Shown here piece by piece: positions 9,000-53,069 of a stretch of DNA of 64,000 nucleotides (position 1 is its first letter; each line of letters begins with the position of its first letter). The DNA is from Paraburkholderia sp. BL23I1N1 (GTDB lineage Bacteria > Pseudomonadota > Gammaproteobacteria > Burkholderiales > Burkholderiaceae): positions 5,146,001 to 5,210,000 of the forward strand of contig NZ_RAPV01000001.1 of assembly GCF_003610295.1 (NCBI RefSeq), read 5' to 3'. A model generated the notes under the pieces. The model did not search any database. It worked only from the letters and a program-made list of their open reading frames with translations, and was not told the DNA's origin. Made by a program: the position numbers and the translations under genes.

Positions 9000-9127
9000 A
9001 GGCGACAGCGGCATTTCAGGTAGGCAGAGCATAACCCGTCCTCGGGCAACGTTTTGCTGATCATCCGGTCAACGTGTTTTTGTGACGAGTGGCATATCGA
9101 CTGCCATCTTCGGCGAGCGAGTGAGTC

Positions 9128-10297
9128 ATGGCAAGCATTACCCTTTCGGCAGTTCAGAAAGCCTACGAAGGCAATCCCCCGGTGATTCGTGACGTGAATC
9201 TCGAGATTGGCGCAAACGAGTTTTGCGTATTTCTCGGACCATCGGGGTGTGGAAAGTCAACCTTGTTGCGCATGGTCGCAGGGCTGGAGGAGATCACTGC
9301 GGGTGAGCTGTGCATCGACGGGAAGATGATGAACCACGTACATCCGTCCCAGCGTCGCGTAGCGATGGTTTTCCAGAATTACGCGCTCTATCCGCACATG
9401 AATGTGTATGAAAACATGGCATTCGGATTGCGCCAGGCGAAACTTGATAAGGCAACGATCGACCGGAAAGTTCGCCAGGCAGCGCAGGCTTTGCAGTTGG
9501 AGAAATACCTTGACCGGCGACCCGCTGCATTGTCCGGTGGCCAGCGCCAACGGGTCGCAATTGGACGGGCGATTGTACGGGAACCCGGCGTTTTCCTTTT
9601 TGACGAGCCGTTGTCAAACCTCGATGCATCGCTTCGGGTTCAAACTCGCACTGAAATTGCCCGACTGCATAGGGAATTCAACAGCGCAAGCGCAATTTAC
9701 GTGACACACGATCAGATCGAGGCAATGGCGCTCGCGGACAAGGTTGTTCTGTTGCACGCCGGTTCTGACATGGAGCGACATGGAAGTGTTGCGCAAATCG
9801 GAGCTCCGCTCGACCTGTATCACCGACCAAAAAGCCGGTTCGTAGCAGGGTTTATCGGATCGCCGAAGATGAATTTTCTTCCCGGCACCGTTTTGGCGAT
9901 TACGAACGTTGGTGTTGCCGTCCGTCTGATCACGGGTGATGTTGTTCATGCGGCAGTCGACGGTAGCAAAGCACGTCTGGGCATGAATGTGACGATGGGC
10001 GTCCGCCCCGAACATCTTCATCTTGATACTCAGGCGGGCAAGCAGCAATCAGTCCACGGAACAGTTCGCCTCGTTGAGCGATTGGGCGAGCATAGCTACG
10101 TTCACGTCGCGATCGGCGAGAAGGGCGCGGACTCGATGATTATCGCGAAACTCGCCGGGGAGGGTGGCGTTTCTGTTGATGAACGGATTCCGCTCCATGC
10201 TTCTCCGGACGTGTGCCATGTTTTCGACGACCAGGATATGGCGCTGAACCGCCTTGAGACCACAGGCGCCTCGACTGGTGCTGTTCGCCTGGCCTAA
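9128..10297 (+). CDS. Sugar ABC transporter ATP-binding protein (MalK/UgpC type)
   Basis: The 389-residue ATPase energises the importer. Walker A is GPSGCGKST near residue 38, the Q-loop FQNYALYPHMNV near 83, the signature LSGGQRQRVAIGRA near 135, Walker B VFLFDEPLSNLD near 155, and the switch YVTHDQIEAMALAD near 190. A C-terminal TOBE/regulatory domain of about 150 residues, typical of CUT1 ATPases, includes GVRPEHL. ATPases of this class can serve several sugar importers, but its position inside the xylose module makes the adjacent permeases its natural partners. Confidence 0.9.
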   Translation: MASITLSAVQKAYEGNPPVIRDVNLEIGANEFCVFLGPSGCGKSTLLRMVAGLEEITAGELCIDGKMMNHVHPSQRRVAMVFQNYALYPHMNVYENMAFGLRQAKLDKATIDRKVRQAAQALQLEKYLDRRPAALSGGQRQRVAIGRAIVREPGVFLFDEPLSNLDASLRVQTRTEIARLHREFNSASAIYVTHDQIEAMALADKVVLLHAGSDMERHGSVAQIGAPLDLYHRPKSRFVAGFIGSPKMNFLPGTVLAITNVGVAVRLITGDVVHAAVDGSKARLGMNVTMGVRPEHLHLDTQAGKQQSVHGTVRLVERLGEHSYVHVAIGEKGADSMIIAKLAGEGGVSVDERIPLHASPDVCHVFDDQDMALNRLETTGASTGAVRLA

Positions 10298-10356
10298 GGT
10301 CAGACAGGGTTTGCCAATACGATCTGTGTCCCGTGACTGTATCAACTGGAATTTTT

Positions 10357-11124
10357 ATGTCGTACGCAATTTATCCAAGCCTGAAAGACAAGACCGTGGT
10401 CATTACTGGAGGCGGTACAGGTATTGGCGCCGCCATGGTCGAGGCGTTCGCTGGTCAGGGCGCGCAAGTGTACTTTCTCGACGTCGCCGAGGCGGATTCG
10501 CTTGCTCTCCAGAATTCCCTTTGCAACGCGTATCATCCACCGCACTTCCAGCGATGTGACCTTCGGAACGTGGACGCAATCACCGAGGTGTTTTCAGCCA
10601 TAACGGATAAGGCCGGCCCGATTGAGATACTTGTCAATAACGCAGCCAACGATGATAGGCATGATCTCGATACAGTTTCGCCAGACTATTGGGACGACCG
10701 GATCGCTGTCAACTTGCGGCACCATTTCTTCTGCGCGCAGAAAGCTGCGCAAAGCATGCGAACGAATGGGCACGGTGTCATTCTGAATCTCGGATCTATC
10801 TCATGGCATCTTGCGTTGCCGGATCTCGCCATTTATATGACCGCAAAAGCAGGGATTGAAGGGTTGACGCGTGGCCTTGCGCGTGACTTGGGGTCCTGTG
10901 GCATCAGGGTTAACTGTATCGTACCCGGTGCGGTTCGAACTGCCCGGCAGATGAAATTGTGGCAGACCGAAGAGAGTGAAACGAGGCTGATCGAGGGCCA
11001 GTGTCTGCCTGAGCGCATCGAGCCAGAACATGTGGCGCGGATGGCGCTGTTCCTGGCGTCGGACGATGGCGCGCGTTGCTCGGGGCGGGAGTATTTCGTG
11101 GATGCCGGATGGTACGGCGCATGA
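10357..11124 (+). CDS. xylB: D-xylose 1-dehydrogenase (SDR)
   Basis: This 255-residue short-chain dehydrogenase should oxidise D-xylose to D-xylonolactone with NAD(P)+. The cofactor motif TGGGTGIG is near residue 17, NNAANDDRH follows mid-protein, and the active site has Ser in LGSISWH and the pair Tyr/Lys in YMTAK. The start SYAIYPSLKDK, the NDDRH block and the C-terminal FVDAGWY agree with Caulobacter XylB as I remember it. A GTG at 10333 is possible, but the ATG at 10357 gives the family N-terminus. Its stop overlaps the next start (ATGA), so xylB and xylC are translationally coupled. Confidence 0.85.
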   Translation: MSYAIYPSLKDKTVVITGGGTGIGAAMVEAFAGQGAQVYFLDVAEADSLALQNSLCNAYHPPHFQRCDLRNVDAITEVFSAITDKAGPIEILVNNAANDDRHDLDTVSPDYWDDRIAVNLRHHFFCAQKAAQSMRTNGHGVILNLGSISWHLALPDLAIYMTAKAGIEGLTRGLARDLGSCGIRVNCIVPGAVRTARQMKLWQTEESETRLIEGQCLPERIEPEHVARMALFLASDDGARCSGREYFVDAGWYGA

Positions 11125-38599: not shown

Positions 38600-40021
38600 T
38601 CAGGTATCCAGCGCAGGTGTCACACTTTCGCTGGAAGGCATTGCACCGTATACGAGCGCAGCAGTAAGCAACAAGGCGGCCCCGATGGCGATGAACATGG
38701 CATCGTATGTGCCTGACCATTGCTGGATAAGGCCCGCAAGTAAAGGTCCTAACATCGCCCCCACCCGCGACAATCCGAGAAAAATACCGACACCTGTCCC
38801 CCGGATTTCCGTGGGATACATTGCTGCAACCAGATTGTTGAGAACTATCTGGGATCCAACTACGAACGCCCCCGCCGCGGCGACCGCAATGATGGTCGTG
38901 TTGTGATTATGAGATCGCGCTAACACCCATATGGCTGCGGCGCCAAGTACGAAGCTTATGGCGACGACGCGTCGGCGATCGCCTGACCGGTCTGCCGCGA
39001 AGCCCGCCAGGAGGCCGCCGAAAACAGCCATTGCGGCGAGCAGGGAGCCGTAAGCAAAGCTTGCCGACAGGTTTTCGCCACGCTTGAGCATGATGGTCGG
39101 GAGCCAGCCGGAGAGGCCGTATGCCGAAAACAGGCTGAGTGCGCCCGCGCAACAGCAACTGACAGTCCGGACCCAGTAATCGCTTGAGAAAAGCACGCGC
39201 GCGGAACCGCGGTGCTCGATCCTGGGCGGCACGTACAGCTGTGCCGACTCGTAGCGCTGCGCACGATCAGGACGGATCTTTCCGAGCAACACTCTCAGTT
39301 CCGACCAGCGGGCGCGGCTCGCGAGGTAGTGGGGCGACTCTGGAAGCCAATGGACGAGCACCGTAAGCGAGAGCAGCGCTGCGCCAGCGTAGTACAAGCT
39401 CTGCCAGCCGAAATGGGGTGTGAGCCATGCCGCGACAATGCCGGCCGATGACGCGCCTGCGAGCCAGCCAAGCGAAAAGAACCACGCAGTGAAAACGTTC
39501 GACACACGCGCCGGCGCAATTTCATTGATATAGGTGACGGCGATCGGCATGAGCAGGCCGAGTGCAAGGCCCATGACCACACGCAGCGCGACATATGAGA
39601 AGAAGTCATGCGCTGCGACGGCGATCGTGAGGCTCATGATGCCGGATGCCCAGCATCCGAGAAGAAGCACCTTCCTGCGGCCAAGGCGATCGCCTAACAG
39701 TCCGGAAACGGTCGATCCTGCTGCGAAGCCTGCCAGGCCGCTGGAGAGAAGTACACCGATTTCACCCGGTGAAAGGCGCCATAGCCCGGCGACCGAATGG
39801 ACGATGTAGGCTGCGTTGTACAGGTCGTAGCCATCAGCCAGAAGTATCAGCGATATCAACAGGCCCAACCGGATGTGGAAGGGCCGGAGGGGGGCGTTGT
39901 CGATCTCCTGCCTTACGTCAAGGCGTCCCGACGAGTTCCATCCCGCGCTTGCACGGGGCGGCTCAAGGTCCACGTCGGGTAATGACGCGAGAACCATTGT
40001 GTCATTCAGCCTGGCCTTCAT
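38600..40021 (-). CDS. MFS transporter (AAHS/sugar-porter-like)
   Basis: The 473-residue, 12-helix carrier has a DGYDLYNAAYIV motif in helix 1, analogous to the DGxD of aromatic-acid symporters, and LLGDRLGRRKVLLLG between helices 2 and 3. LPESPHYLASR precedes the middle loop. Its N-terminal cytoplasmic arm is about 50 residues. It probably imports the aromatic or heterocyclic acid used by the downstream-oriented cluster at 40-45 kb, which is transcribed in the same direction. Confidence 0.82.
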   Translation of the reverse strand: MKARLNDTMVLASLPDVDLEPPRASAGWNSSGRLDVRQEIDNAPLRPFHIRLGLLISLILLADGYDLYNAAYIVHSVAGLWRLSPGEIGVLLSSGLAGFAAGSTVSGLLGDRLGRRKVLLLGCWASGIMSLTIAVAAHDFFSYVALRVVMGLALGLLMPIAVTYINEIAPARVSNVFTAWFFSLGWLAGASSAGIVAAWLTPHFGWQSLYYAGAALLSLTVLVHWLPESPHYLASRARWSELRVLLGKIRPDRAQRYESAQLYVPPRIEHRGSARVLFSSDYWVRTVSCCCAGALSLFSAYGLSGWLPTIMLKRGENLSASFAYGSLLAAMAVFGGLLAGFAADRSGDRRRVVAISFVLGAAAIWVLARSHNHNTTIIAVAAAGAFVVGSQIVLNNLVAAMYPTEIRGTGVGIFLGLSRVGAMLGPLLAGLIQQWSGTYDAMFIAIGAALLLTAALVYGAMPSSESVTPALDT

Positions 40022-40146: not shown

Positions 40147-41128
40147 TTACGCGAGCCGCGGCGCTTCGCGCGTTGGAAGGGGAAGCGGGGCGCCGAGTCC
40201 GGCACGCGTTGCACGCTCCAGAATTTCGACGCCAAGCGCCAGGTCCGACACCCCCATCCCCATTGCCTTGAAGATAGTGATGTCGTCGTCAGCGGTGCGG
40301 CCGCTCTTTCCGGCGATGACATCACACAGCGAGTTGACGTCGGCCCAGCGACGGGATTCGCCATAGGCCCGAATGAGCTCGGTCGAAAGGCGTTGCGCCG
40401 CGGGCAGGTCGTCAACGACGGCGCGCGTGCAGCGGGCGAACACATTCATTTCGAGTTCGACACGCTCCTCGGTAATCGCCCCTACCGCGTTGATGTGGGC
40501 GCCCCGGGCTATGCTCGACGCAGACAGGAATGGCTGTTTCGCGCGCGTCACCGTGGTGATGATGGGCGCGTCGGAAACAGCCTCTTCCACGGAGCTGGCT
40601 TCGACGATTTCCATTTGAAACGTCTCACGCGCTCGGGCGATAAAACGCCTGCCGCTTCTCGGGCGTTGGGCTGAAAACCCGCACGAGGCGCAGCGGTCGT
40701 ACAGCGGCCACTGCGGCGAGTTGCGACAGGGCCTGCTTGCCCGTACCAATCAGCGCCATCACGTCGGCATCCGGCTGTGCAAGCCACCGCGACGCGACGC
40801 CGGATATCCCGCCGGTGCGCATCTGCCCGAGCGCGAACGCCTCGATGATCGCTTTCAACTGTCCCGTCGCAGCATCGAACAGAATCAGCAAGGGGCATGT
40901 TCCGCCGGTAGTGTGCGCCCATGTCTTGGTTCCGACGATGCCGGTCTTCGGATACGTGGCGCCAATGGCGTGCAGGTTATTCTCGCCCCAGGCTACATGC
41001 GTTTTCACCATGTTGCGCGCATCGCCCGCCGCCTGCTGAGCCAGGCCTCGCTCGAGCGCGCCGATTGCGTCAGAAAGGCTCATCAATGCGACGACATTCT
41101 GTTCGGAGATCCAGATCGGTGAAGTCAT
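40147..41128 (-). pseudogene. Ornithine cyclodeaminase/mu-crystallin family, frameshifted
   Basis: Two frames together give a full-length protein of about 325 residues. The first (from 41128) has EQNVVALMSLSDAIGALERG, KTHVAWGENNLHAIGATYP, FALGQMRTGGISGVASRWLA, and the dinucleotide motif ALIGTGKQA. The second continues with FQMEIVEASSVEEAVSDAPIITTVT and AVVDDLPAA. The break is at a four-A run (40642-40645 on the plus strand); removing one base restores the reading frame. Members interconvert amino/imino acids with NAD(P). It begins eight bases after the stop of the CMD-like gene. Either a real lesion or a sequence error. Confidence 0.75.
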
Positions 41129-41135
41129 CTCGCTG

Positions 41136-41683
41136 TTACTCCTCGAAGATTGACGGGACCGGCGGCGCCAGTCGGAGACTGTTGACCACGATCGCGTGAG
41201 TGACGTAACGCCCAATCAACATTGCGAAGGCCATTGCTTCGGATGGCGGAACGAGACTGGCGAATGCCTCAAACTCGTCCTCAACGCCGATTCCACGCTT
41301 CTGGAGCGCCGCAAGCGCGTAGACCTGCGCCGCCTTTTCGACATCCGTCAACGCTTCGGCCGACGCCGGATCGAGCCTGTTGACTTCCGCGATCCATTCG
41401 CGGGAAAGCCCAGCTTCACACTCAGACGTTCGTGCTGATGGCGTTCATAGCGGTTCTCCATGTAGCTCGCCACTGTCAGTGCACCGAGTTCGGTCAGCCG
41501 GTCCGGGAGCGCCTTCTTCAATGCGTCGGTGAAATGCATGAATTGCAGGATCACGTCGGGCGCATTACCTGCGCACTTGAAGAGTTCGCCCAGATACCCG
41601 AGCCGTTTCACGCGCGGCCCAAGATAGGCTGCGAGGTCGGGGGGCAGCGACTCCATCTCGAGCCGGGGGATACGGTTACTCAT
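41136..41683 (-). pseudogene. Carboxymuconolactone decarboxylase-like (AhpD fold), frameshifted
   Basis: The first frame (from 41683) reads PPDLAAYLGPRVKRLGYLGELFKCAGNAPDVI and LTELGALTVASYMENRYE, typical of CMD/AhpD-like helical proteins. It then runs out of frame at a short T run (three A at 41405-41407 on the plus strand). In the shifted frame the family-like tail continues: REWIAEVNRLDPASAEAL, DVEKAAQVYALAALQKRG, and so on to 41136. One inserted base would restore a protein of about 180 residues. The usual CxxC is absent. GGAGAC box at the start. Confidence 0.65.
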
Positions 41684-41709
41684 CGTTGTCTCCTTTTGAC
41701 GGGCGCGCG

Positions 41710-43188
41710 TCAGAACGCACCGGCGAGCACGCCGGCCTTGATTTCGAGGTAGTCGTCGACTCCGTACACAGAGCCTTCGCGTCCGACGCCGGACGCCTTG
41801 ACTCCGCCGAACGGAACGACTTCCGATGAGATCGCGCCGGTGTTGATGCCGACCATGCCGGCTTCGAGCGCCTCGAACACGCGAACAATCCTGTCCATGC
41901 GGGACGCGAAGAAGTAAGCCGCGAGGCCGTATTCCGTATCGTTGGCAAGCGCAATGCCTTCTTCTTCCGTGACGAATCGCACGATCGGCGCCACGGGACC
42001 AAACGCTTCCTCGCGAAAGAGCCGCATATCGGGAGTCACGTCGCGCACAACCGTCGGTTCGAAGAAATTACCTCCGAGCGGATGCGGGTTGCCGCCGACC
42101 GTCACTGTCGCATCCCGCGCAATAGCGTCTTCGAGCAAGGCGCGGAGATGGGCAATAGCATCGCTATTGATGAGCGGGCCTTGATCGACGCCTTCTGCCG
42201 TTCCCGGGCCTACACGTAGCCGCGCCACTGCACGCTCGAATTCCGTGCAGAACGTGTCGTACACGCCCTCCTGAACCAGAATCCGGTTGGTACAGACGCA
42301 GGTCTGTCCGGCATTGCGGAATTTCGAGAAGATCGCGCCCGCGACAGCCTTCGGGATGTCAGCGTCGTCGAATACGATGAACGGTGCGTTGCCGCCCAGT
42401 TCCATTGAAACCTTCTTGACCGTTTCCGACGATTTCGCCATCAGTTCACGACCGACTTCTGTCGAGCCGGTGAACGTGAGCTTGCGCACGATCGGGTTAC
42501 GACAAAGTTCATCGCCGATGGGGCGGGCGCTGCCCGTGACAACGTTGATGACGCCTGCGGGAATGCCGGCTTCCTCGGCGAGCACGGCGAGCGCCAGCGC
42601 GGTGAACGGGGTGGCGCTCGCTGGCTTCAGAACCACCGTGCAGCCCGCCGCAAGCGCCGGTCCGATCTTGCGGGTAATCATCGCCGCCGGAAAATTCCAT
42701 GGCGTGATGGCCGCACAGACGCCAACGGGCTGCTTGACGACGATAATGCGATGGCCGTCGGCAGGGGCGGGGATCACATCGCCGTTGATCCGTTTCGCCT
42801 CCTCAGCGAACCATTCGATGAAGGATGCGGCGTAGCGAATCTCTCCGCGCGCCTCAGCGAGCGTCTTGCCCTGTTCGGACGTCAGAATCAGTGCAATGTC
42901 CTCGATATGCGCAACCACCCTGTCGTGCCACGTACGCAGCAATTGCGATCGATGCTTCGCAGTGGTCCGCTTCCAGGATTTCAGCGCTGTCGCTGCCTGC
43001 TCAATCGCGCTGCGCACCACTTCGACCTTAAGGTCAGGGACGCGTCCGACGATTGCTCCCGAAGCCGGATTGCGCACGTCAAGCGCTGCCCCGTCGCCGG
43101 CCTCGATCCACGTGCCGCCCACGTATGCAGCCTGACGCAGCAGATCGGGACGAGCGAGGACGGGCGTCGCCAGCTTATGTGTTGGCAT
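41710..43188 (-). CDS. NAD(P)-dependent aldehyde dehydrogenase (GabD-like)
   Basis: The 492-residue enzyme has the ALDH landmarks: TPWNFPAAMITRKIGPAL near residue 165, LTFTGSTEVG near 240, the catalytic Glu in MELGGNAPFIVFDD near 265, and the catalytic Cys in NAGQTCVCTNR near 300. The sequence is closest in style to succinate-semialdehyde dehydrogenases. In this operon it should oxidise the aldehyde released by the DapA-type lyase next to it. It could also supply the 2-oxoglutarate-semialdehyde step missing from the xylose module, since GabD-like enzymes often accept that substrate; this is inference. Confidence 0.87.
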   Translation of the reverse strand: MPTHKLATPVLARPDLLRQAAYVGGTWIEAGDGAALDVRNPASGAIVGRVPDLKVEVVRSAIEQAATALKSWKRTTAKHRSQLLRTWHDRVVAHIEDIALILTSEQGKTLAEARGEIRYAASFIEWFAEEAKRINGDVIPAPADGHRIIVVKQPVGVCAAITPWNFPAAMITRKIGPALAAGCTVVLKPASATPFTALALAVLAEEAGIPAGVINVVTGSARPIGDELCRNPIVRKLTFTGSTEVGRELMAKSSETVKKVSMELGGNAPFIVFDDADIPKAVAGAIFSKFRNAGQTCVCTNRILVQEGVYDTFCTEFERAVARLRVGPGTAEGVDQGPLINSDAIAHLRALLEDAIARDATVTVGGNPHPLGGNFFEPTVVRDVTPDMRLFREEAFGPVAPIVRFVTEEEGIALANDTEYGLAAYFFASRMDRIVRVFEALEAGMVGINTGAISSEVVPFGGVKASGVGREGSVYGVDDYLEIKAGVLAGAF

Positions 43189-43206: not shown

Positions 43207-44100
43207 TCAGATGAGACCTGCGCGTTCGAGCACGTGGTCGAGGCGTTTTTCGAGTTCGGGAGTCGCAGGGACCATGGGCAGCCGATGCTCGTTGACCGGC
43301 AGCAGGCCCAGCCGCTTCATCATGTACTTGATCGGAATCGGATTGGTGTCGAAGAACACTGACAGATTCAGTTCAAACAGATCGAAGTGCAGCTTTCGCC
43401 CTGCCGCAAGATCGCCCTGGTCGACGGCCTCGAAGAGGTCGGCGACCTTGCGGGGTGCGAGATTGCCGACCGCATTCATCAATCCGCATGCACCGACCGC
43501 GAGCATCGGGAAGCTCAGTTCCTCGAGGCCTACAAACACACGCCAGTCGGGCCCGAACGTGTCAAGCATGTGCGTGACGAAACCCATATCGTTGACGGCG
43601 TGTTTCATGCCGATGAGGTTCGGCACGCGCTCCCGGATTGCCTTGACGGTCGCGAGATCCACGTTCACGGCCGCGCGCCCCGGGATGTGATAGATCATTA
43701 GCGGCCGTTCTGTGCGTTGGCCAACTTCTGCGTAATACTCGACGAGGCCGCGTTGTGGCGGCTTGATGTAGTACGGCGTGACAACCAGCAGCCCGTCGAC
43801 GCCTGCTTTGTCCGCATGGGAAGTCAGCTCAAGCGTTTCCGCTAGCGATTGGGAACCGGTCGCCGCGATCACCGGCACGCGACCGGCCGCAGCCTCGATC
43901 GCCACGTCGACAAGGCGATTGCGTTCAGCAGTCGTCAGCGTGCTGGGTTCTGCAGTAGTGCCGTTGACGAGCACGCCGTGACCGCCGTTGGCGATCTGCC
44001 AGTCCACGAGCCGCGCGTAGGTGTCGTAGTCGACCTCGCCGTTCCGGAACGGCGTGACGATCGGGGTCATTGAACCCCGCAATGAAGAAAGTTTGGTCAT
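43207..44100 (-). CDS. DapA/NAL-superfamily aldolase or hydratase-aldolase
   Basis: The 297-residue TIM-barrel has NGTTAEPSTLT near residue 45, VVTPYYIKPPQRGL near 108, the Tyr-bearing IYHIPGRAAVNV near 135, and the Schiff-base Lys in LIGMKHAVND near 165. Members cleave or form carbon-carbon bonds at pyruvate. Between a gentisate-type ring-cleaving bicupin and an aldehyde dehydrogenase it would hydrate and split the ring-opened product to pyruvate and an aldehyde. True dihydrodipicolinate synthase is unlikely in this setting. Confidence 0.8.
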   Translation of the reverse strand: MTKLSSLRGSMTPIVTPFRNGEVDYDTYARLVDWQIANGGHGVLVNGTTAEPSTLTTAERNRLVDVAIEAAAGRVPVIAATGSQSLAETLELTSHADKAGVDGLLVVTPYYIKPPQRGLVEYYAEVGQRTERPLMIYHIPGRAAVNVDLATVKAIRERVPNLIGMKHAVNDMGFVTHMLDTFGPDWRVFVGLEELSFPMLAVGACGLMNAVGNLAPRKVADLFEAVDQGDLAAGRKLHFDLFELNLSVFFDTNPIPIKYMMKRLGLLPVNEHRLPMVPATPELEKRLDHVLERAGLI

Positions 44101-44111
44101 CGATCGAGTCC

Positions 44112-45230
44112 TCAGGTTGCGCTCTTGCGATTGGTCTGGAAGCCCGTCTGGGTGCCCAGCAGCGCCGGCGCTTCCTTCAAGCTCTCCTGCCAGAGGAGCG
44201 ATTCCATGTAGATGTTCAGTGGCTGATCCTGAATCGTCAGTTCATACACGGGCTCGTCGTGCGATGCATGGTTGTGCACAGCCCAGCCGGGTGCCGACAA
44301 CATCAGGTCGCCCGCTTTCCAGTCGTAACGGTTGCCAGCGACCATGCTGTGGCCCGAGCCGGAAAAGTAGTAGTTGATTGCGGCCGATACGTGGCGGTGC
44401 GGACGATCGACGATCTTTGGCGGACGGATTGTCATGGTTGCAAAGAAGTTCGGCGTGATGCCGTTCGTGCGCCCCGTCGTCGGGTTGTACATCATGTAGA
44501 GACGTCGGCCCACGTACTCGCTGCCAAGTGCGGCGAGTTTGTCGAGTTCTGCCTTTACGTTTTCCCACGGGAAATGGAGCGGCTTCGACTCGACAACGGT
44601 CGGGTTGATCAACGTCTCATACGGCATGAGCAGGCCGCCCTCGGTGCCGATCGGGAACGTGCCATAGGGATTCTTGCGCCGAGGATCGTCATCAGAGTGG
44701 GTAATCGCAGGACCGCTCTCGACGTCAAGCGCAACATCGAAATCCGGCACATAGATTTCCATGTGCTGAAGCAGCGGGATGTTCGAGTACACCAGCCGGA
44801 CCTGGATGTCGTCCGAGTCATTGATGTGCTGATAGGCGACGAATGACGGATGGTTCCATACGTCGTATTGACGGAATGCAATAGAGCGACCGGCAACGAT
44901 CGTGCGACCCGCACCGCGAATGCAGAAGTTGACCTCAGTCGCGTTATGGCGCATGGGTTGCGTGGCTTCGCCCGGCAACAGCACCTGCAGCATGACCTGG
45001 ATGCCGGGCGCGAGCCCCGGTGCGTCCTTACGCGCTGAGGGATGCACGATCAGCGATTGCCGGCGTCCGTCGGCCGGGGCCGGCAGGCCCGCGAGGCGAG
45101 CCACTTCGCCGTCGATTTCCTCGCGCGTGATGACCACAGGATCCCAGTAGTGATTGTCCCGCGGACGTGTTGTTGTCTGATCGACAAACGACGCCTCGCG
45201 CCGTTCGAACGCGTGCTTCAGCTCATGCAT
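44112..45230 (-). CDS. Gentisate/1-hydroxy-2-naphthoate dioxygenase-like bicupin
   Basis: The 372-residue protein has two cupin domains like gentisate, salicylate and 1-hydroxy-2-naphthoate dioxygenases, which open a hydroxylated ring next to the carboxylate. In those, the iron His residues sit in the N-terminal cupin. Here that site is degenerate (PMRHNATEVNF in place of HRH; FVAYQHIN in place of WxWH). The C-terminal cupin keeps PHRHVSAAINYYFSGSG and PGWAVHNH. ATG 45230 follows a GGAGGCAG box. It is the first gene of a minus-strand operon with the DapA-type lyase and the aldehyde dehydrogenase, divergent from an HTH-citrate-synthase protein. Confidence 0.75.
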   Translation of the reverse strand: MHELKHAFERREASFVDQTTTRPRDNHYWDPVVITREEIDGEVARLAGLPAPADGRRQSLIVHPSARKDAPGLAPGIQVMLQVLLPGEATQPMRHNATEVNFCIRGAGRTIVAGRSIAFRQYDVWNHPSFVAYQHINDSDDIQVRLVYSNIPLLQHMEIYVPDFDVALDVESGPAITHSDDDPRRKNPYGTFPIGTEGGLLMPYETLINPTVVESKPLHFPWENVKAELDKLAALGSEYVGRRLYMMYNPTTGRTNGITPNFFATMTIRPPKIVDRPHRHVSAAINYYFSGSGHSMVAGNRYDWKAGDLMLSAPGWAVHNHASHDEPVYELTIQDQPLNIYMESLLWQESLKEAPALLGTQTGFQTNRKSAT

Positions 45231-45447
45231 GACTGCCTCCGTTTTCGGTAATGGATTTGTGCTTCGGTCACGTCGCTGCGCAACCGTTGCCATCCGAAAA
45301 CAATAGACTTCATTAAGAATTCGATCAAGATTGATAATTCAAATCAATATAAAGGCGTTAGCTTGCCGCTGGGCCTTGTCTAATGGGTGTTCCGGCGCTC
45401 GATGTACAATTGATTAAATCTACTTTGTCAAAGGAATGCGTCGTCCC
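45231..45447. promoter_or_regulatory. Divergent promoter region with inverted repeat
   Basis: This AT-rich region separates the bicupin operon from the HTH-citrate-synthase gene. It contains ATTGAT, seven bases, ATCAAT (45330-45348) and a further ATTGATTAAAT near 45410. These are candidate operators for the adjacent HTH protein. Confidence 0.5.
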
Positions 45448-46701
45448 ATGGCCAAGGATTTATTGACTCGAAGCGAAGTGCTCGAATTGCTCAACATCAA
45501 GGCGGGCACGCTCTACGCGTACGTGAGCCGGGGCTTGATCAAGACGGCTCCGCACCCGGACGGTCGCAAGAGCCTGTATTTCCGGACCGACGTAGATCGT
45601 GTTCGCAGCCGCAAACGTGGGCGACCGCCGCAGATCGCCGCGGCGGAATCCACGATGCACTGGGGTGCGCCGGTAGTGGCCTCTGCAATCACACAGATTG
45701 CCGAGGCGGGCCCGTCCTACCGGACCCGCCCGGCCGTCGAAATGGCACGCGCGGGAGTGTCGTTCGAATCGGTCGCGCAATTGCTGATGACAGGAATGTG
45801 GCAAGACAATTTCGCGGCCTGGCCGGCCATCGACACGCCGGAAGATGTGAAGCAGCTGATTGATCATTACCAGGCGTCGCAAGTGGCCACCGATATTGGC
45901 AATCTGCTCGGCATGGTGACATTCGCGTTGGGTATGCGCGGCAGGGGACCGGCGGAAATCGCGGACGGCGCATCCGTGCCGGCCGCAAGGCTCCTGATGC
46001 AAACGATGGCTGGCTGCCTGGGTTTCCTGCAGACGTCGCGCCGCTTCGCAGCGCGCCAGGCATTCGAGTCGCTTCCGGCGTTTATTCTGCGCGTCAGCGG
46101 CGTTGATGTCTCGCCGGAGGCTCTGCGCGCATTAAATGGAGCGATGGTCGTACTCGCCGATAACGAACTGGCGCCGGCGACATTCGCCGCGCGCATTGCT
46201 GCATCGACCAACGCTGACCTCTTCAACTGCGTTGCAGCAGCAATAGGCTCGCATCTCGGATTCTCAACAGGCACGGCCACCCACAAGGTGGAGTCCGCAT
46301 TGCTTCAGACGACGTCGGCCAAGGACCTGGCACAGCGCAAGAGCCTCGTCAAGGAGTACGGCGCAAGCCTGTTCGGTTTCAATCATCCAATGTATCCCGG
46401 AGGTGACCCCCGGGCGGACGTCATACTGGACCTGGTCCAGGCACTCCCGAGACTGGAAAGCGGCACCCGTAATACTCTCGCGTTTCTCGCCGAACTTCGC
46501 GCACAGCAGCAGGCGCATCCGGGCGTCGCAATAGCGCTGGTCACGCTTGCCCGGGCGTTGGGGATGCCCGACGGGTCTGCAACGGCGATCTGGGTACTAA
46601 GCCGCACGAGCGGCTGGGTGGCGCACGTGTTGGAGCAGCGCACGATGGGCTTCTTGCTCAGGCCGCGCGCGAAATACATAGGTAGCGCTGCCTTGCGCTG
46701 A
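45448..46701 (+). CDS. HTH-citrate-synthase-fold protein, probable ligand-sensing regulator
   Basis: The 417-residue protein starts with an excisionase/MerR-like helix-turn-helix (LLTRSEVLELLNIKAGTLYA, then SRGLIKTAPHPDGRKSLYF). After a basic RSRKRGRPP linker comes a citrate-synthase fold. Of the three citrate-synthase catalytic residues only the His of LFGFNHPMYPGGDPRAD remains. The HGxA segment reads GFSTGTAT (His lost), and the Asp of the NxD block reads PGVAIAL (Asp lost). ADHE is ADNE. It is thus unlikely to make citrate and more likely senses an acyl-CoA or carboxylate to regulate the divergent bicupin operon. ATG 45436 abuts its ribosome binding site, so I chose 45448. Confidence 0.78.
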   Translation: MAKDLLTRSEVLELLNIKAGTLYAYVSRGLIKTAPHPDGRKSLYFRTDVDRVRSRKRGRPPQIAAAESTMHWGAPVVASAITQIAEAGPSYRTRPAVEMARAGVSFESVAQLLMTGMWQDNFAAWPAIDTPEDVKQLIDHYQASQVATDIGNLLGMVTFALGMRGRGPAEIADGASVPAARLLMQTMAGCLGFLQTSRRFAARQAFESLPAFILRVSGVDVSPEALRALNGAMVVLADNELAPATFAARIAASTNADLFNCVAAAIGSHLGFSTGTATHKVESALLQTTSAKDLAQRKSLVKEYGASLFGFNHPMYPGGDPRADVILDLVQALPRLESGTRNTLAFLAELRAQQQAHPGVAIALVTLARALGMPDGSATAIWVLSRTSGWVAHVLEQRTMGFLLRPRAKYIGSAALR

Positions 46702-47025: not shown

Positions 47026-47922
47026 ATGCAAGCGCTCCCCTCTTTCAACCATCTGCGCAGCTTTCAGGTCATCGGTCATCACCTAAATCCTGTGCACGCG
47101 GCACGCGAACTGAACCTAAGTCCATCGACGCTATCGTATCAACTTGGCATCCTTGAAGAGCGGCTCGGCGTGCGTCTGTTCATACGCACGGGCCGCGGGC
47201 TCGCGTTCACCGATGCTGGCCGCGAGTTACATGGAGAAGTAGATCGATGTCTTCGGCAACTCTGGACGGCATGGCAACGCGTCGCAGTGCGCGGCGCATC
47301 TGCTCCGCTCATCGTCAATTCGCTGCCGACATTTGCTATGCACTGGTTGTTGCCGCGGCTCGCTGCGGTCCAAGAGCAGTTCTCGAACGTCGAGATTCGC
47401 GTGTCAATCTCAGCGGTCGATTTCGTGCGAGACGCGCTTGACTGCGCGATCGCATACGGTGACGGTGATTGGCCGGGGTTGCGTTGCGATTTCCTTCGTG
47501 CCGAAAAGTTAATCACTGCATGCTCCCCAACGACGCGTACGGCTAAAGCGCCGCTAGTGGGTGTCGCTGACCTGGCGCATCATACGCTGCTCTCCGCCAG
47601 GTCTCGCCCAGAAGATTGGGCGCTGTGGGCGGAAGCCGCGGATAGTCCAGCGCCAGCGGGCGAACGTCAGTTGGTTCTCGCCTCGCGGATCGTGGTGATT
47701 CAAGCCGCCTGTGAAAGCCTCCGAGTGGCGGTCGTGGACCCGGCGATGGTGCGGGCGGAGTTATCGGCAGGTCGACTAGTGCAGGCTCTGCCTGAAGTGG
47801 CTCGAGGAAAGGGCTCGTACTATCTCCTCTATCCCGAAGGAGAGGAAGCATTTGCGCGAGTGGGTGCGTTTCGGGCTTGGTTGCTCGCAGAACTTGCGGT
47901 GGAAGAGACGCGGATCGCATGA
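47026..47922 (+). CDS. LysR-family transcriptional regulator (GcvA-like)
   Basis: The 298-residue regulator has an N-terminal winged HTH (FNHLRSFQVIGHHLNPVHAA, then LNLSPSTLSYQLGILEERLG) with FxRTGRGLAFTDAG, and a substrate-binding domain that follows the GcvA/AmpR pattern, ending in RVGAFRAWLLAEL. It lies between gene fragments, with an IS66 remnant 15 bases upstream and an aldehyde dehydrogenase fragment directly downstream. Its natural promoter and target have probably been removed. The coding sequence itself is intact. Confidence 0.82.
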   Translation: MQALPSFNHLRSFQVIGHHLNPVHAARELNLSPSTLSYQLGILEERLGVRLFIRTGRGLAFTDAGRELHGEVDRCLRQLWTAWQRVAVRGASAPLIVNSLPTFAMHWLLPRLAAVQEQFSNVEIRVSISAVDFVRDALDCAIAYGDGDWPGLRCDFLRAEKLITACSPTTRTAKAPLVGVADLAHHTLLSARSRPEDWALWAEAADSPAPAGERQLVLASRIVVIQAACESLRVAVVDPAMVRAELSAGRLVQALPEVARGKGSYYLLYPEGEEAFARVGAFRAWLLAELAVEETRIA

Positions 47923-48883: not shown

Positions 48884-49951
48884 TCACTTCAGGCCGAACG
48901 CGACTTCCGCGTTGGTCTGGTAGAAGCGCTTCTTGTCTTCCGGCGTGGACGACATGTTGTCGAGAATGCCGACCTCCTCGATCGCGTGTTGATACGGATA
49001 GTCCATCGCATACATGACGCGATCGGCTCCCATCATGCCTTGCGTGTACTTGATGGCGGCTTCGTCCGCTACGCCGCTGTTGGTGATGTAAAAATTCTCG
49101 CGCAGATAGTCGCTCGGCTTCTTCTGAATCGGCTTCATGCAGGCGTAACGCTCCGACTTCACGGTCGCGCGGTGCATGTAGTCGAGACGATAAGCCCAGA
49201 ACGGCAGCGCTTCGCCCATGTGGCCGAGAATGATCCGTAACTTCGGGAAGTGGTCGAACACGCCCGCCGTAATGATTCGCAGCGCGTGCAGTCCGGTCTC
49301 GACGCCGAAGCCGAAGATTGCGCCGTCGAGGCCGCACTCGAGGAACGGCTGAATCATGTTGCGCGGTGGCGTGTTCGGGTGCAGGTAGATCGGCGTGTCG
49401 TTCGCCTCGGCGGCTTCAAAAATGGCCCAAAACTTCGGATCCGAAAGATATTCACCATGCGTGTGCGAATTGATGATGACACCGTTAAGCCCCAGCTTTT
49501 GCACGCCCCGCTCAATCTCCTTCGCTGCCGCTTCTGGGTCTTGCGGCGCTACAGCAACCATTCCCGTGAAACGCGTCGGGTGCTTGCGAACTGCTTCCGC
49601 CAACTCATCGTTGGCGACCTTGGCGAACGCAACGGCCGATTCCCCGTCCATGACCTGCACGCCGGGCGACGTCAGTGCGATCACCTGCCGGTCGATCCCC
49701 GCTTCGTCCATATGATGCAGTCGTTGCTCGCCGAGGTCAGTGAGGCATTCGATAATGTGCCGCGCCCGGGCGCTCTTGCTGCTCATATAGAAGCCGATCA
49801 GGCTGACGAAGCCGGGATCGGGGTCCGCGCCCTCAAGAATCTTGCGCCAAATCTGAAGCATTTCCGCTGGCGCGAACGCTTCTTCAGTGGCAATGCGCTT
49901 ATAGGCGACCTTGCCCGGGCGCGGGGCTGTCGTAGTTTGGCTTTGATCCAT
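48884..49951 (-). CDS. Metal-dependent aromatic-acid decarboxylase (amidohydrolase-2 family)
   Basis: The 355-residue TIM-barrel belongs with the 2,3-dihydroxybenzoate/gamma-resorcylate decarboxylases. The N-terminal IATEEAFAP resembles the EEAFA start of 2,3-dihydroxybenzoate decarboxylase, where Ala replaces the second metal His of gamma-resorcylate enzymes. Other metal/active-site residues are present: His in IYLHPNTPP, His in ILGHMGEALPFW, and Asp in MYAMDYPYQ. It should remove CO2 from a hydroxybenzoate to give a phenol or catechol, feeding the extradiol dioxygenase upstream on the same strand. ATG 49951 is preferred over 50002. Confidence 0.75.
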   Translation of the reverse strand: MDQSQTTTAPRPGKVAYKRIATEEAFAPAEMLQIWRKILEGADPDPGFVSLIGFYMSSKSARARHIIECLTDLGEQRLHHMDEAGIDRQVIALTSPGVQVMDGESAVAFAKVANDELAEAVRKHPTRFTGMVAVAPQDPEAAAKEIERGVQKLGLNGVIINSHTHGEYLSDPKFWAIFEAAEANDTPIYLHPNTPPRNMIQPFLECGLDGAIFGFGVETGLHALRIITAGVFDHFPKLRIILGHMGEALPFWAYRLDYMHRATVKSERYACMKPIQKKPSDYLRENFYITNSGVADEAAIKYTQGMMGADRVMYAMDYPYQHAIEEVGILDNMSSTPEDKKRFYQTNAEVAFGLK

Positions 49952-50061
49952 GAGCCCATTCCTCTCTTGCTGGTTAAGAATTGTGGAAGCCAGTGCATCC
50001 AAACAGCACGCTGTAAGTTCCGGCGTCCGTCAGTCACTTCAATGCTACCGCCTTGCTCGCA

Positions 50062-51111
50062 TTAGAACCTGTGGACGAGGCCAATCTGCATGCCCTTTGC
50101 TGTCGCACCAGGATAGGCCACCGGAATACCTGCGGTCGTCGCGCCGTTCATAGCAAAAGTTGCCTTGTTCTGATTGTCGATCCATGCCGCCGCGGCATAC
50201 AGAGTGGTTCGTTTAGACAAAAAATAGTTGTAACTAACACCGATCTGATTTGCGTTGTTATCAAGAGACGACTTGTCCCGTGCGTGTCCTATCCCGATGG
50301 CGGCGGTCATGTCTGGGCTGATCGTGTAACGTAGCGATGCGACATACACATCTCGATTGAGCGGCGTTTCGGTCTGCCGGTTGTTGTTATAGCCAATAAA
50401 AGCGGTCACCGGCCCAAAGCTGTACGACACTCCCGCATATAGTGCCTTCAGAGTGCTTCCAGGCGGAGCGGACGGATAGCTGATTCCCACGGGATCATTG
50501 ACGCTCTGGTAACCGAAGGTCGCCCCCACCGGGCCATTCGCGTATTCGATTCCCACGTGGTAGTTCGCTATACCGTTTTGCGGGGCCGTCGTTGTGTCTC
50601 TCAGTCCCACCATAAATTGAGCAGTCAGGCCCGCGATGTTGGGTGTGTGATACGAGATTGCATTGTTCACTCTCGGAACGATACTGAGGAAGCTGATTAG
50701 CGCAGACCCGATTGTCGCTCCACCGAATGCGTCCAGAAGACCAGAAACGGGGATGTAGACAGGGGAGTTCTGACGTCCGAACCGCAGTTCCCCCCACGGA
50801 CCGGCCACACCAACCCAAGCCTGACGACTAAATGAAAGGCTGGGTGTACTAACTGCACCGTTGTTTACCAAAAATCCCTGCTCAAGCGTGAATTTAATGG
50901 AATAACCTCCTCCGATGTCCTCAGTGCCTAGAAAGCCGAATCGTGATCCGAGCACCTCTCCCGAATCCATACGAACAGCTGTCCCGCTCCCTACGTTAGC
51001 GACCTCGACGCTGTTATCCAAAATTCCATAAAGGGTCACTCCTCCAGAAGCGTGGGCACTCAACGAAAGAACCATCAGTGACGTCCATAATATAGGATAC
51101 CGAAGCTTCAC
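50062..51111 (-). CDS. Outer-membrane general porin (Burkholderia type)
   Basis: The 349-residue porin has a signal peptide ending near AHAS, first strand GGVTLYGILDNSVEV, GSRFGFLGTEDIGGGYSIKFTLEQGF, and LRFGRQNSP, and ends GLVHRF. It is the shortest and most diverged of the three porins in the window. It lies between the decarboxylase and the extradiol dioxygenase on the same strand, so it is probably induced with the cluster to admit its substrate. Confidence 0.87.
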   Translation of the reverse strand: MKLRYPILWTSLMVLSLSAHASGGVTLYGILDNSVEVANVGSGTAVRMDSGEVLGSRFGFLGTEDIGGGYSIKFTLEQGFLVNNGAVSTPSLSFSRQAWVGVAGPWGELRFGRQNSPVYIPVSGLLDAFGGATIGSALISFLSIVPRVNNAISYHTPNIAGLTAQFMVGLRDTTTAPQNGIANYHVGIEYANGPVGATFGYQSVNDPVGISYPSAPPGSTLKALYAGVSYSFGPVTAFIGYNNNRQTETPLNRDVYVASLRYTISPDMTAAIGIGHARDKSSLDNNANQIGVSYNYFLSKRTTLYAAAAWIDNQNKATFAMNGATTAGIPVAYPGATAKGMQIGLVHRF

Positions 51112-51285
51112 GTTTGTTGTCTCCTTGAATTCTTATTTGTTGTCGGGCGGCAAATCTCGCCTCGACCTGGCGCTCCGCGCTGTTCGACATGTGCCGTAGC
51201 CGCCGCGTTAGATCGGCTTGCTGAACGAACACTATCGAAGAAAAAGTGCGACAGAGCGCCAGGTCGGCGTCGAGGTGCTGTGGGA

Positions 51286-52230
51286 TTACGGTTTCACATT
51301 GTTTCGAAAACGGTCTGACGGAGGATCGCCCCACTGATTGGTGAGGCCTTCTTTAACGTCCCAGACCCCTATGGGCGCGCTTGCGTTCAACCGATCGGAG
51401 TCCGCCCAGTGCTCGTGAGCGTGTCCGAACGGATCATTCCAGTAGTCGAAAAGTTGGCTTCCTAGCAGATGTCGACCGACACCCCAAAGCTGGTCATAGC
51501 CGCGTGATTTCAGAAAGTGGTGGTCCGCCATGACAGCGTCGATGTCTTGAGCTTCGAAAGAGACGTGGTGCAATCCCGCCGTCGCCGAGCGCATCGGAAG
51601 GAATGCATGATGGTCCACGTAATCATCGCCTTTGTCGACTCGAAGGAAGGACGCGATGTGTTCTGAACCGCCATGACCGAAGACTTCATCGGAGGCGACA
51701 AAGCCAAGTGTCTGTGCGAACCACTCCGCAGTCTCGGAAACGATTGGCGTCCCAAGCACGACGTGGGCAATCCGCTTGACTGGAGTTGGCTGCCCTTGCG
51801 GCAGCCGCAACACTGTTCCTGCCCGGGCGAGAGGGCGACGACCTGTATTAACCGCCTGCCGTTCGATGTTAATCGGCTCGCGCGCCTCGATTCCGTACAC
51901 CACATCAACGGCATAGCCGTTGGGCTCCTGCAGTCTCAGACGCATGCCGCCGCCCGGTTCGTCAATTTGCTCGACTTGACGTCCCGTTGCAGCTGCAAGC
52001 ACATGGAGATCACTTTCGTTCTTCGCTTGAAAAGCGAAGCCAAGGAGGGAGAGCGGGCCCTCATGAATGATGTAGCAATGAGGGGCCGCGTCTGTGCCCC
52101 GGAAGTAGATTGCATCTGCAGTCTCAGCGACTGAAATCAGACCAAAGTCGGTGAGGAAGCTCTTTGCTTTCGCGAGGTCGGGAACTTGTCGACGAATGTA
52201 GACAAGTTCGTTGCATTTTATCGTGCTCAT
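51286..52230 (-). CDS. Extradiol ring-cleavage dioxygenase (two-domain VOC)
   Basis: The 314-residue protein has two VOC modules. The C-terminal module carries the iron site: His in KRIAHVVLGTP, His in AGLHHVSFEAQD, and Glu in GHAHEHWADSD. GVGRHLLGSQLFDYWNDPFG is shared in pattern with the enzyme at 16980-17942, so the two are distant paralogs. It should open the ring of the catechol formed in this cluster. The SDR gene lies 20 bases upstream on the same strand. Confidence 0.83.
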   Translation of the reverse strand: MSTIKCNELVYIRRQVPDLAKAKSFLTDFGLISVAETADAIYFRGTDAAPHCYIIHEGPLSLLGFAFQAKNESDLHVLAAATGRQVEQIDEPGGGMRLRLQEPNGYAVDVVYGIEAREPINIERQAVNTGRRPLARAGTVLRLPQGQPTPVKRIAHVVLGTPIVSETAEWFAQTLGFVASDEVFGHGGSEHIASFLRVDKGDDYVDHHAFLPMRSATAGLHHVSFEAQDIDAVMADHHFLKSRGYDQLWGVGRHLLGSQLFDYWNDPFGHAHEHWADSDRLNASAPIGVWDVKEGLTNQWGDPPSDRFRNNVKP

Positions 52231-52250
52231 AGTATTTCTCTGGACAGTTA

Positions 52251-53069
52251 CTAGGCCATTAGACGGCCGCCGTTTACATGGAATGTGTGGCCAGTCACAA
52301 ATCTCGATGCTGGGCCAAGCAGAAACAACATCGGTGCGACAATGTCTTCCGGTTCGGCGATTCTGCGCAACGGAATCGTTTCAATAATCGCTCGTGCGCG
52401 CTCAACCCCGAACCAATCTTCAAGAGAGGACCCTACGCGTTCCGTCGCTTGCCCAGAACCACCGGCAAGGAATGGGGTGTTCACGAGACCAGGTGACAGG
52501 GTGTTGACTCGTATCGGCGCCCATTCTTTGGCAAGCGTCTTCGCCAGCGCTACCAGCCCTGCTTTTGACGCGCTGTACGCAAGAAATCCAGGGTCCGCTT
52601 GCTGCGCAAGCCCTGAAGACACTATCACCACTGAGCTATGCTCAAGCAAGAGGGGACGAGCGCGAGTCATAGTTAAAAATGCGCCGCGCAAATTCACGTC
52701 CATCGTTCGATCCCACTGCTCAACGGTGTGCTCTGTTGCAGGTGTTGGGCGCGCGCCGATCCCGGAAACGAACGCGAGCCCATCAATGGAGCCCCATCGT
52801 TCCTGTATTGCACTGAATGCAGCGTCGATAGAATCGTTGTCGGTCACATCTACTGCGATTGAGTGCAGTCCCTCCATGGGCCCGGCTTTGTCGATCGCCG
52901 ATGCTGTATCGAGGGCAATAACCTCCACCTCGATGGAAAGCGCCGCCTGACAAAGCGCTCTTCCGATGCCGCCATGACTACCGACAACGACGAGTCTGAA
53001 TCCCCGCGAAGGCGCGAGCCGGCCGAAGTCGAAGGGTGCCTGACTTTGGTTTGAAGTGTAGTTGGTCAT
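52251..53069 (-). CDS. SDR-family dehydrogenase
   Basis: The 272-residue short-chain dehydrogenase has VVVGSHGGIGRAL near residue 28, an Asp-containing VIALDT after the second strand (NAD preference likely), catalytic Ser in IVSSGLAQ, and the Tyr/Lys pair in YSASKAG. The NNAG motif is replaced by FVSGIG. It may act as a dihydrodiol dehydrogenase producing the catechol cleaved by the following dioxygenase. About 25 residues before the fold are unusual but have no signal features. Confidence 0.8.
   Translation of the reverse strand: MTNYTSNQSQAPFDFGRLAPSRGFRLVVVGSHGGIGRALCQAALSIEVEVIALDTASAIDKAGPMEGLHSIAVDVTDNDSIDAAFSAIQERWGSIDGLAFVSGIGARPTPATEHTVEQWDRTMDVNLRGAFLTMTRARPLLLEHSSVVIVSSGLAQQADPGFLAYSASKAGLVALAKTLAKEWAPIRVNTLSPGLVNTPFLAGGSGQATERVGSSLEDWFGVERARAIIETIPLRRIAEPEDIVAPMLFLLGPASRFVTGHTFHVNGGRLMA

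Follow-up and report, generated by a model that had tools for sequence, protein, structure and literature searches.

The locus considered here raises the question of whether a protein in which a helix-turn-helix (HTH) domain is joined to a citrate synthase fold acts as an enzyme or as a regulator. The gene lies within a 64,000-nucleotide stretch of the genome of the soil bacterium Paraburkholderia sp. BL23I1N1 (contig NZ_RAPV01000001.1, positions 5,146,001 to 5,210,000; this whole stretch is termed the window) and encodes a 417 aa fusion, referred to as HTH-CS (HTH-citrate synthase). The evidence as a whole is best explained if HTH-CS is a one-component transcription regulator in which a winged HTH is coupled to a sensor with a citrate synthase fold, and we consider this reading likely. 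Orthologs agree on a start at or adjoining position 45448, and the plus-strand frame at 45448..46701 that had been assigned in an earlier reading of the letters alone (the sequence-only reading) was right. That reading had also proposed that a DNA-binding domain has been added to the enzyme fold, which was borne out: the 70-residue N-terminus scores 30.6 bits with HTH_17 (PF12728), over the cut-off of 27, the score in a scan of the whole protein being 26.2 bits, slightly under this cut-off. Residues 72–407 match Citrate_synt (PF00285) with an E-value of 2.6e-43, and the best NCBIfam citrate synthase model scored 107.9 bits where 332 are required, which leaves the protein outside those models. 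In monomer models the helix of the winged HTH ends at residue 53–58 and is followed by a low-confidence linker of approximately 20 residues up to the next domain. A KRGRPP motif in this linker, which we take to be AT-hook-like, is partly conserved, with RGR near that position in 65 of 98 aligned sequences.

Active-site equivalences were deduced by alignment with a GltA-like protein of the same genome and are given in pig numbering. We take His274, His320 and Asp375 to be the catalytic residues, His238 to bind oxaloacetate, and Arg329, Arg401 and Arg421 to form the carboxylate pocket. The sequence-only reading had noted that the HGxA His and the NxD Asp are replaced and that only the HPxY His is left; the alignment agrees, placing T274 (GFSTG) and A361 (PGVA) at the first two positions and H313 at the third. 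A further change, additional to that reading, is N239 at the His238 equivalent, while R322, R386 and R405 are kept. When the window protein and the best 120 of 1470 matches were compared, no His was present at the 274 column and no Asp at the 375 column (0/121 each), and the arginine triad was kept in 121/121. Across a broader collection of 90 HTH-citrate synthases (92 rows minus L088 and L043; L numbers denote individual loci), His274 is missing in 52, of which 52, 51 and 52, respectively, keep the three arginines. The remaining 38 keep His274, and of these 37 have His320 and 36 Asp375, with Glu instead of Asp in two. The GPxHGG loop, which presumably lines the acyl-CoA side, is degenerate in the clade that lost His274. 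Lost His and Asp residues and a degenerate loop, set against the kept arginines, indicate that the acyl-CoA and chemistry side of the site has decayed and the carboxylate side has not.

It might be argued that the protein is still an enzyme, be it a citrate or methylcitrate synthase or one catalysing a related condensation or lyase reaction, which carries an HTH and regulates only secondarily. Such a view draws on the retained fold and arginine triad, on the public names, which call such proteins citrate synthase, and on the intact HTH relatives that keep His, His and Asp; it has to contend, however, with the replacement of two of the three catalytic residues and loss of a third active-site His in the window protein, with the absence of His274 from 50/50 clade rows as well as from the 121 proteins above, with the degenerate GPxHGG loop, and with the presence in the genome of four further high-scoring citrate synthase genes (408–479 bits against 149 for HTH-CS). 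We therefore regard it as very improbable that catalysis is the function of HTH-CS.

The loss of the catalytic His can be placed on a midpoint-rooted tree of 103 rows (110 minus seven that were truncated, fused or badly called). One branch (support 100/100) holds 85 HTH rows together with L058, which failed the search motif yet has an evident HTH, as opposed to 17 plain citrate synthases. The loss of His274 is a single change on this tree, defining a 50-row group (support 100/99) that is separated from all other rows by a single branch in each of 200 bootstrap trees. The named members of this clade are betaproteobacteria, mostly Burkholderiales, with the exception of L037, a Hyphomicrobiales metagenome-assembled genome in which His274 is lost and the Asp kept. 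Comparison of the window gene with its 97% relative (L122) yields a dN/dS of 0.083, indicating purifying selection, and values of 0.07–0.22 were obtained against five more distant relatives, for which dS is near or past saturation. This bears on the notion that the window strain holds a decaying regulator, which is raised by its operon containing two frame-split genes: the small conserved gene and the ornithine cyclodeaminase-family gene consist of overlapping split frames in the window and of one stop-free stretch each in L122, reflecting either decay or sequencing error. Since the frames of HTH-CS and of the bicupin, aldolase, aldehyde dehydrogenase and transporter genes are open and the dN/dS is as low as stated, decay of HTH-CS is the least credible of the explanations considered.

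HTH-CS is divergent from an operon headed by a bicupin gene, as the sequence-only reading had described, and this arrangement is conserved in 16 of the 18 related loci compared, or in 14 of 16 when identical loci are counted once. The 18 comprise 15 genus relatives of at least 50% identity (L092–L106), among which the bicupin gene is divergent and adjoining in 13 and not in L105 (60%) or L106 (50%), together with L012, L013 and L014. A core consisting of the bicupin, dihydrodipicolinate synthase (DHDPS)-type, small unnamed and cyclodeaminase-family genes was present in 9/9 loci (L122–L126, L129 and L012–L014; seven distinct, as L125 equals L013 and L129 equals L014). No bicupin gene was found at the loci of Burkholderia peredens (L015) and Pandoraea (L017), where HTH-CS lies opposite a major facilitator superfamily (MFS) transporter gene whose product is 53–60% identical to those of bicupin loci. 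Genes in these loci were called with a simple script.

For a broader view, neighbours were counted at 32 loci that lost His274 and 27 intact loci, picked by hand so that a group of similar neighbourhoods mostly contributed a single locus. The counts cover the 25 commonest families, and rarer ones, such as citrate synthase next to members that lost His274, may also be present. The 126 neighbours of the former included TctC (10), MFS_1 (8), short-chain dehydrogenase (7), aldehyde dehydrogenase (6), thiamine pyrophosphate enzyme (6), Rieske (5) and cupin (at least 5) proteins; the 106 neighbours of the latter included Citrate_synt (15), CoA_transf_3 (3) and MFS_1 (1), intact HTH-citrate synthases often being encoded opposite a plain, second citrate synthase. 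No aromatic-operon linkage stood out among these 106 intact-form neighbours within the 25 commonest families. HTH-CS matches occur in 12 plasmid records, and among the four examined, HTH-CS adjoins ring-hydroxylating oxygenase components in two, has such genes approximately 5 kb off in one, and stands at a bicupin locus in one. The clade that lost His274 is linked to aromatic-acid catabolism and carboxylate transport.

The intergenic region at 45231–45447 was correctly delimited in the sequence-only reading, ortholog starts falling near 45448 and 45230, and the inverted repeat reported between the genes is ATTGAT-N7-ATCAAT at 45330–45348; a repeat finder requiring arms of at least 8 did not list it, its arms being 6. 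In an alignment of 17 intergenic sequences (15 distinct, L013 and L095 being the same, as are L014 and L098), the palindrome lies in a 28-bp block with 22/28 invariant columns, as compared to 16/273 of the other columns and to 4 in the next-best 28-column stretch. Among six diverse sequences the block retains 23/28 invariant columns against 18/273 elsewhere, and the five sequences other than the window share 35–48% identity with the window over ungapped positions outside the block. With as many as 3 mismatches allowed, the block occurs at a single place in the 9.1-Mb genome, so that a genome-wide search with it yielded no target besides its own site.

The palindrome of the window subgroup was also applied to 82 regions outside that subgroup (91 minus nine near-copies), and was found, at up to 2 mismatches, upstream of 24 of these HTH-CS genes, as compared to a mean of 0.81 and a maximum of 4 in 100 shuffles and to 5 of 623 other gene starts of the same loci, the latter counted without dereplication. 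Half-sites were enriched at several spacings, most of all N6 (22 of the 82) and N7, the rest giving 4–14. A search for N6/N7 sites that allowed one mismatch in TTGAT/ATCAA, the spacing being chosen after the N7 result, located a site in 21 of 33 intact regions and in 18 of 49 other regions of the group that lost His274 (shuffle means 0.6 and 0.9, respectively; 28/623 control starts). These 49 belong to neither the window subgroup nor the intact list, and L088 and L105–L120 were included without an individual His274 check. As it is present in both intact and dead forms, the operator candidate probably predates the loss of catalysis. Two observations qualify the assignment of this operator. The loose palindrome alone proves little, as the window contains a single exact match, and with as many as 2 mismatches tolerated the count is 3 against a chance expectation of 1.63; and the N6/N7 site was not found in 31/49 other and 12/33 intact upstream regions, many members having no palindrome, from which it follows that part of the family may use another site.

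The conserved block also bears on the LysR-type regulator encoded beside HTH-CS, which could itself control the bicupin operon while HTH-CS acts elsewhere. Its 75–76% relatives adjoin HTH-CS, convergently, in L124, L129 and L014, and a LysR-type gene named gcvA does so in the plasmid record with the bicupin locus; yet no relative was found in L122, L123, L125, L126 or L013, nor near the gene in L012 (2–8 kb covered), six loci that all keep HTH-CS opposite bicupin, and sites resembling the block precede other HTH-CS genes as well. We consider control by the LysR-type protein unlikely, if somewhat less so than retained catalysis.

How HTH-CS might regulate can be approached from the promoter geometry. 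A TTGAnn-N17-TAnnnT element begins one base past the palindrome on the bicupin side in 17/17 intergenic sequences, although a generic sigma-70 scan, which demands closer matches, found no promoter at this candidate. Counting from a usual promoter, the palindrome centre would be near -46, a place typical of activators, and activation is suggested by the palindrome abutting the -35 element. TTGAT-type half-sites near the HTH-CS start, present in 17/17 aligned regions in varying arrangement, point to autoregulation. The same half-sites could also serve a repressor, a dimer of which would lie over the bicupin -35 region and near its own start until released by a pathway carboxylate; the candidate -35 hexamer falls on one more TTGAT half-site, and divergent autoregulated repressors are common. 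The palindrome itself nonetheless lies on the upstream side of this -35 candidate, and the hexamers match the consensus poorly, which fits the need for an activator. Repression is accordingly viewed as possible though the less probable sign, and the predicted regulator is probably an activator.

A regulator derived from a repurposed enzyme fold, which is what the sequence-only reading had pointed to, is strongly supported at the level of sequence by the single loss of the His, the purifying selection, the divergent operon, the palindromic block, the promoter spacing and the half-sites elsewhere. Citrate synthases are dimers, and we infer that the winged HTH, perhaps aided by the basic linker, would bind ATTGAT-N7-ATCAAT within a dimer of the citrate synthase fold. 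The citrate synthase domain would have lost catalysis and kept the three arginines of the oxaloacetate/citrate pocket. Of the ligands put forward in that reading, a pathway carboxylate or oxaloacetate would fit these invariant arginines, while an acyl-CoA fits less well given the degenerate GPxHGG loop; the ligand is probably a di- or tricarboxylate that arises in the divergently encoded ring-cleavage route, such as a 2-oxo-dicarboxylate formed before the aldolase step. As citrate synthase does, the fold may close when it binds this ligand and thereby alter where the two HTH domains lie or how tightly they bind, whereupon the bicupin promoter would be activated from the palindrome abutting its -35 element and HTH-CS would be autoregulated through the half-sites by its start.

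Judged by its relatives, the window protein is a member of a wide family and not a single odd protein, and part of this family keeps the full catalytic set. The 79 named loci were drawn from the best 80 of 588 matches and are biased to close relatives; HTH-CS was present in 25 of 144 genomes in a genus-level search and, order-wide, in at least 8 of 399 genomes, its own included, at an E-value of 1e-60 or better with at most four candidates scored per genome. Intact HTH-citrate synthases occur in Myxococcota, Rhizobium, Caulobacter, Pseudoxanthomonas, Ralstonia and the window genome. The latter encodes three HTH-citrate synthases, namely the window gene, the degenerate L006 and L005, which has the full catalytic set. 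L006 (L009:8556-9815, minus strand) is approximately 70 kb off, near short-chain dehydrogenase/reductase (SDR)-like and esterase-like genes and a transposase-like frame, and its best palindrome match has 3 mismatches. The intact paralog (L005/L010; L010:7791-9026, minus strand) is divergent from a CoA-transferase family III gene (9084-10568, plus strand), has CTTGATTATGATAATCAAT upstream, and shares its neighbour cluster with three further intact loci (L078, L082 and L090). Three HTH-CS-matching places in one record or genome were also seen in plasmids NZ_CP021364.1 and NZ_CP021368.1 and in genome G243.

A wider proposal, for and against which we see the balance as even, is that HTH-citrate synthases constitute an undescribed family of metabolite-sensing DNA-binding proteins with the following history. 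The ancestral form would have had the full catalytic set, as an enzyme governing itself and a neighbouring citrate synthase gene via TTGAT-N6/7-ATCAA; a single loss of the catalytic His in the ancestor of the mostly Burkholderiales clade would have freed the carboxylate pocket to read citrate-like ring-cleavage intermediates; and copies would then have spread to many catabolic operons as local switches, concealed by the name citrate synthase. If this is true, citrate synthase, a textbook central enzyme, joins the folds from which bacteria have made sensors for transcription, and a single family, even a single genome, preserves its enzyme-like and its dead members together. Because the tree places the disappearance of the catalytic His at one step, the family would also be a clear case in which to study the conversion of an active site into a sensor pocket. 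The proposal, if true, would likewise correct the public annotation as citrate synthase, supply regulators and candidate operators for orphan aromatic-degradation clusters, and provide a source of carboxylate biosensors.

The features of the locus are collected in the table. Orthologs support a bicupin start near 45230 and not 45293; the relatives of the bicupin are named gentisate 1,2-dioxygenase, cupin or AraC-type ligand binding protein, and its NCBIfam scores are far under cut-off. The aldolase-like protein scores best with TIGR02313 (310 bits, under the cut-off of 396.7) and exceeds the cut-off of the DapA model TIGR00674 (255 bits against 206), and the plasmid record with the bicupin locus names its DHDPS-type protein 2,4-dihydroxyhept-2-ene-1,7-dioic acid aldolase. 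The aldehyde dehydrogenase gene is present in the window, L122 and L123 and not in the other seven bicupin loci compared. In view of these aldolase scores and of the few loci with the dehydrogenase gene, it is only a guess that the pathway ends in pyruvate and succinic semialdehyde, then succinate. The small operon gene gave no Pfam match, either as the window frame or as its intact relative in L014. Further aromatic-catabolism-type genes lie downstream at 48884-53069 (minus strand), comprising amidohydrolase and glyoxalase-family genes and, by eye, SDR-like and porin-like frames.

Table. Features of the HTH-CS locus (window positions; pLDDT, predicted local distance difference test).
Feature	Position	Strand	Basis or remark
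HTH-CS fusion, 417 aa, proposed one-component regulator	45448..46701	+	frame and profile matches
Winged HTH, residues 5-53 (Xis/MerR-like)	45460..45606	+	
Basic linker KRGRPP, residues 56-61, presumably AT-hook-like	45613..45630	+	pLDDT <50 at 56-75
Citrate synthase fold, residues 72-407	45661..46668	+	
N239 replacing His238	46162..46164	+	alignment
T274 (GFSTG) replacing His274, presumed catalytic	46267..46269	+	alignment
H313, kept equivalent of His320, presumed catalytic	46384..46386	+	alignment
R322, equivalent of Arg329, presumed carboxylate-binding	46411..46413	+	invariant 98/98
A361 (PGVA) replacing Asp375, presumed catalytic	46528..46530	+	alignment
R386, equivalent of Arg401, presumed carboxylate-binding	46603..46605	+	invariant 98/98
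R405, equivalent of Arg421, presumed carboxylate-binding	46660..46662	+	invariant 98/98
Conserved 28-bp block, proposed operator O1	45325..45352	.	
Palindrome ATTGAT-N7-ATCAAT, exact	45330..45348	.	
Bicupin promoter candidate TTGATC-N17-TATTGT	45300..45328	-	
ATTGATT half-site upstream of HTH-CS start, possible autoregulatory site	45409..45415	+	weak in window itself
Bicupin, ring-cleavage dioxygenase-like, divergent partner of HTH-CS	44112..45230	-	profile scans
DHDPS-family aldolase-like gene	43207..44100	-	profile scans
Aldehyde dehydrogenase	41710..43188	-	over succinate-semialdehyde dehydrogenase cut-off (TIGR01780)
Small conserved operon gene, split over two frames	41142..41692	-	
Ornithine cyclodeaminase-family gene, split over two frames	40153..41128	-	
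MFS transporter, aromatic acid/H+ symport-like	38600..40021	-	TIGR00895, under its cut-off
LysR-type regulator beside HTH-CS	47026-47922	+	

Compared to PrpC (2-methylcitrate synthase) and GltA, the window protein has the His274, Asp375 and His238 equivalents replaced and has gained a winged HTH, linkage to a catabolic operon and an operator-like conserved block. The intact HTH-citrate synthases share the domain order of the window protein, cluster with it in the tree (100/100) and show the same half-sites in 21/33 regions, but differ in that His274 is kept, and His320 and Asp375 nearly always so, and in being often encoded across from a plain citrate synthase gene. Searches of open-access literature found no description of a citrate-synthase-fold regulator or of such a family, although public Pfam annotation already shows the combination of HTH and citrate synthase, naming it citrate synthase. 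Closest among published ideas is that of Caulobacter CitA, an active citrate synthase with a cell-cycle regulatory role independent of its activity, whose paralog CitC did not complement an E. coli gltA mutant (PMC7083601). CitA differs in being an active enzyme that acts on the cell cycle, and the term helix-turn-helix has no occurrence in the text of that paper (PMC7083601). In Caulobacter sp. 602-1 (L075), an HTH-CS gene is divergent from a plain citrate synthase gene, and these two could be the counterparts of citB and citC, which are neighbours in Caulobacter crescentus. The citrate synthase homology domain of ATP citrate lyase is credited with an allosteric role in the title of PMC10115795. 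In contrast to the proposed HTH-CS regulator, this domain is a module of a eukaryotic enzyme and does not belong to a DNA-binding protein.

The winged HTH of HTH-CS is similar to that of the MerR family and its relatives (SoxR, CarH, GlnR and BldC), the MerR models scoring 20.2 bits against 28.2 (PF00376) and 18.2 against 21.6 (PF13411) on the HTH-CS N-terminus. MerR proteins carry a long dimerising helix after the winged HTH and have their operator within a 19–20-bp promoter spacer; at HTH-CS loci, the -35 and -10 elements of the candidate promoter are 17 bp apart and the palindrome precedes the -35 element (17/17), a predicted geometry that would also speak against MerR. Membership of the MerR family was rejected, as the predicted models of HTH-CS, unlike MerR, contain no long dimerising helix. 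Regulators of the ROK, MocR/GabR and PurR types are one-component proteins that combine an HTH with an enzyme-derived effector domain. HTH-CS differs from them in its effector fold, and we propose that it is a regulator of this same general kind with the citrate synthase fold as its effector.
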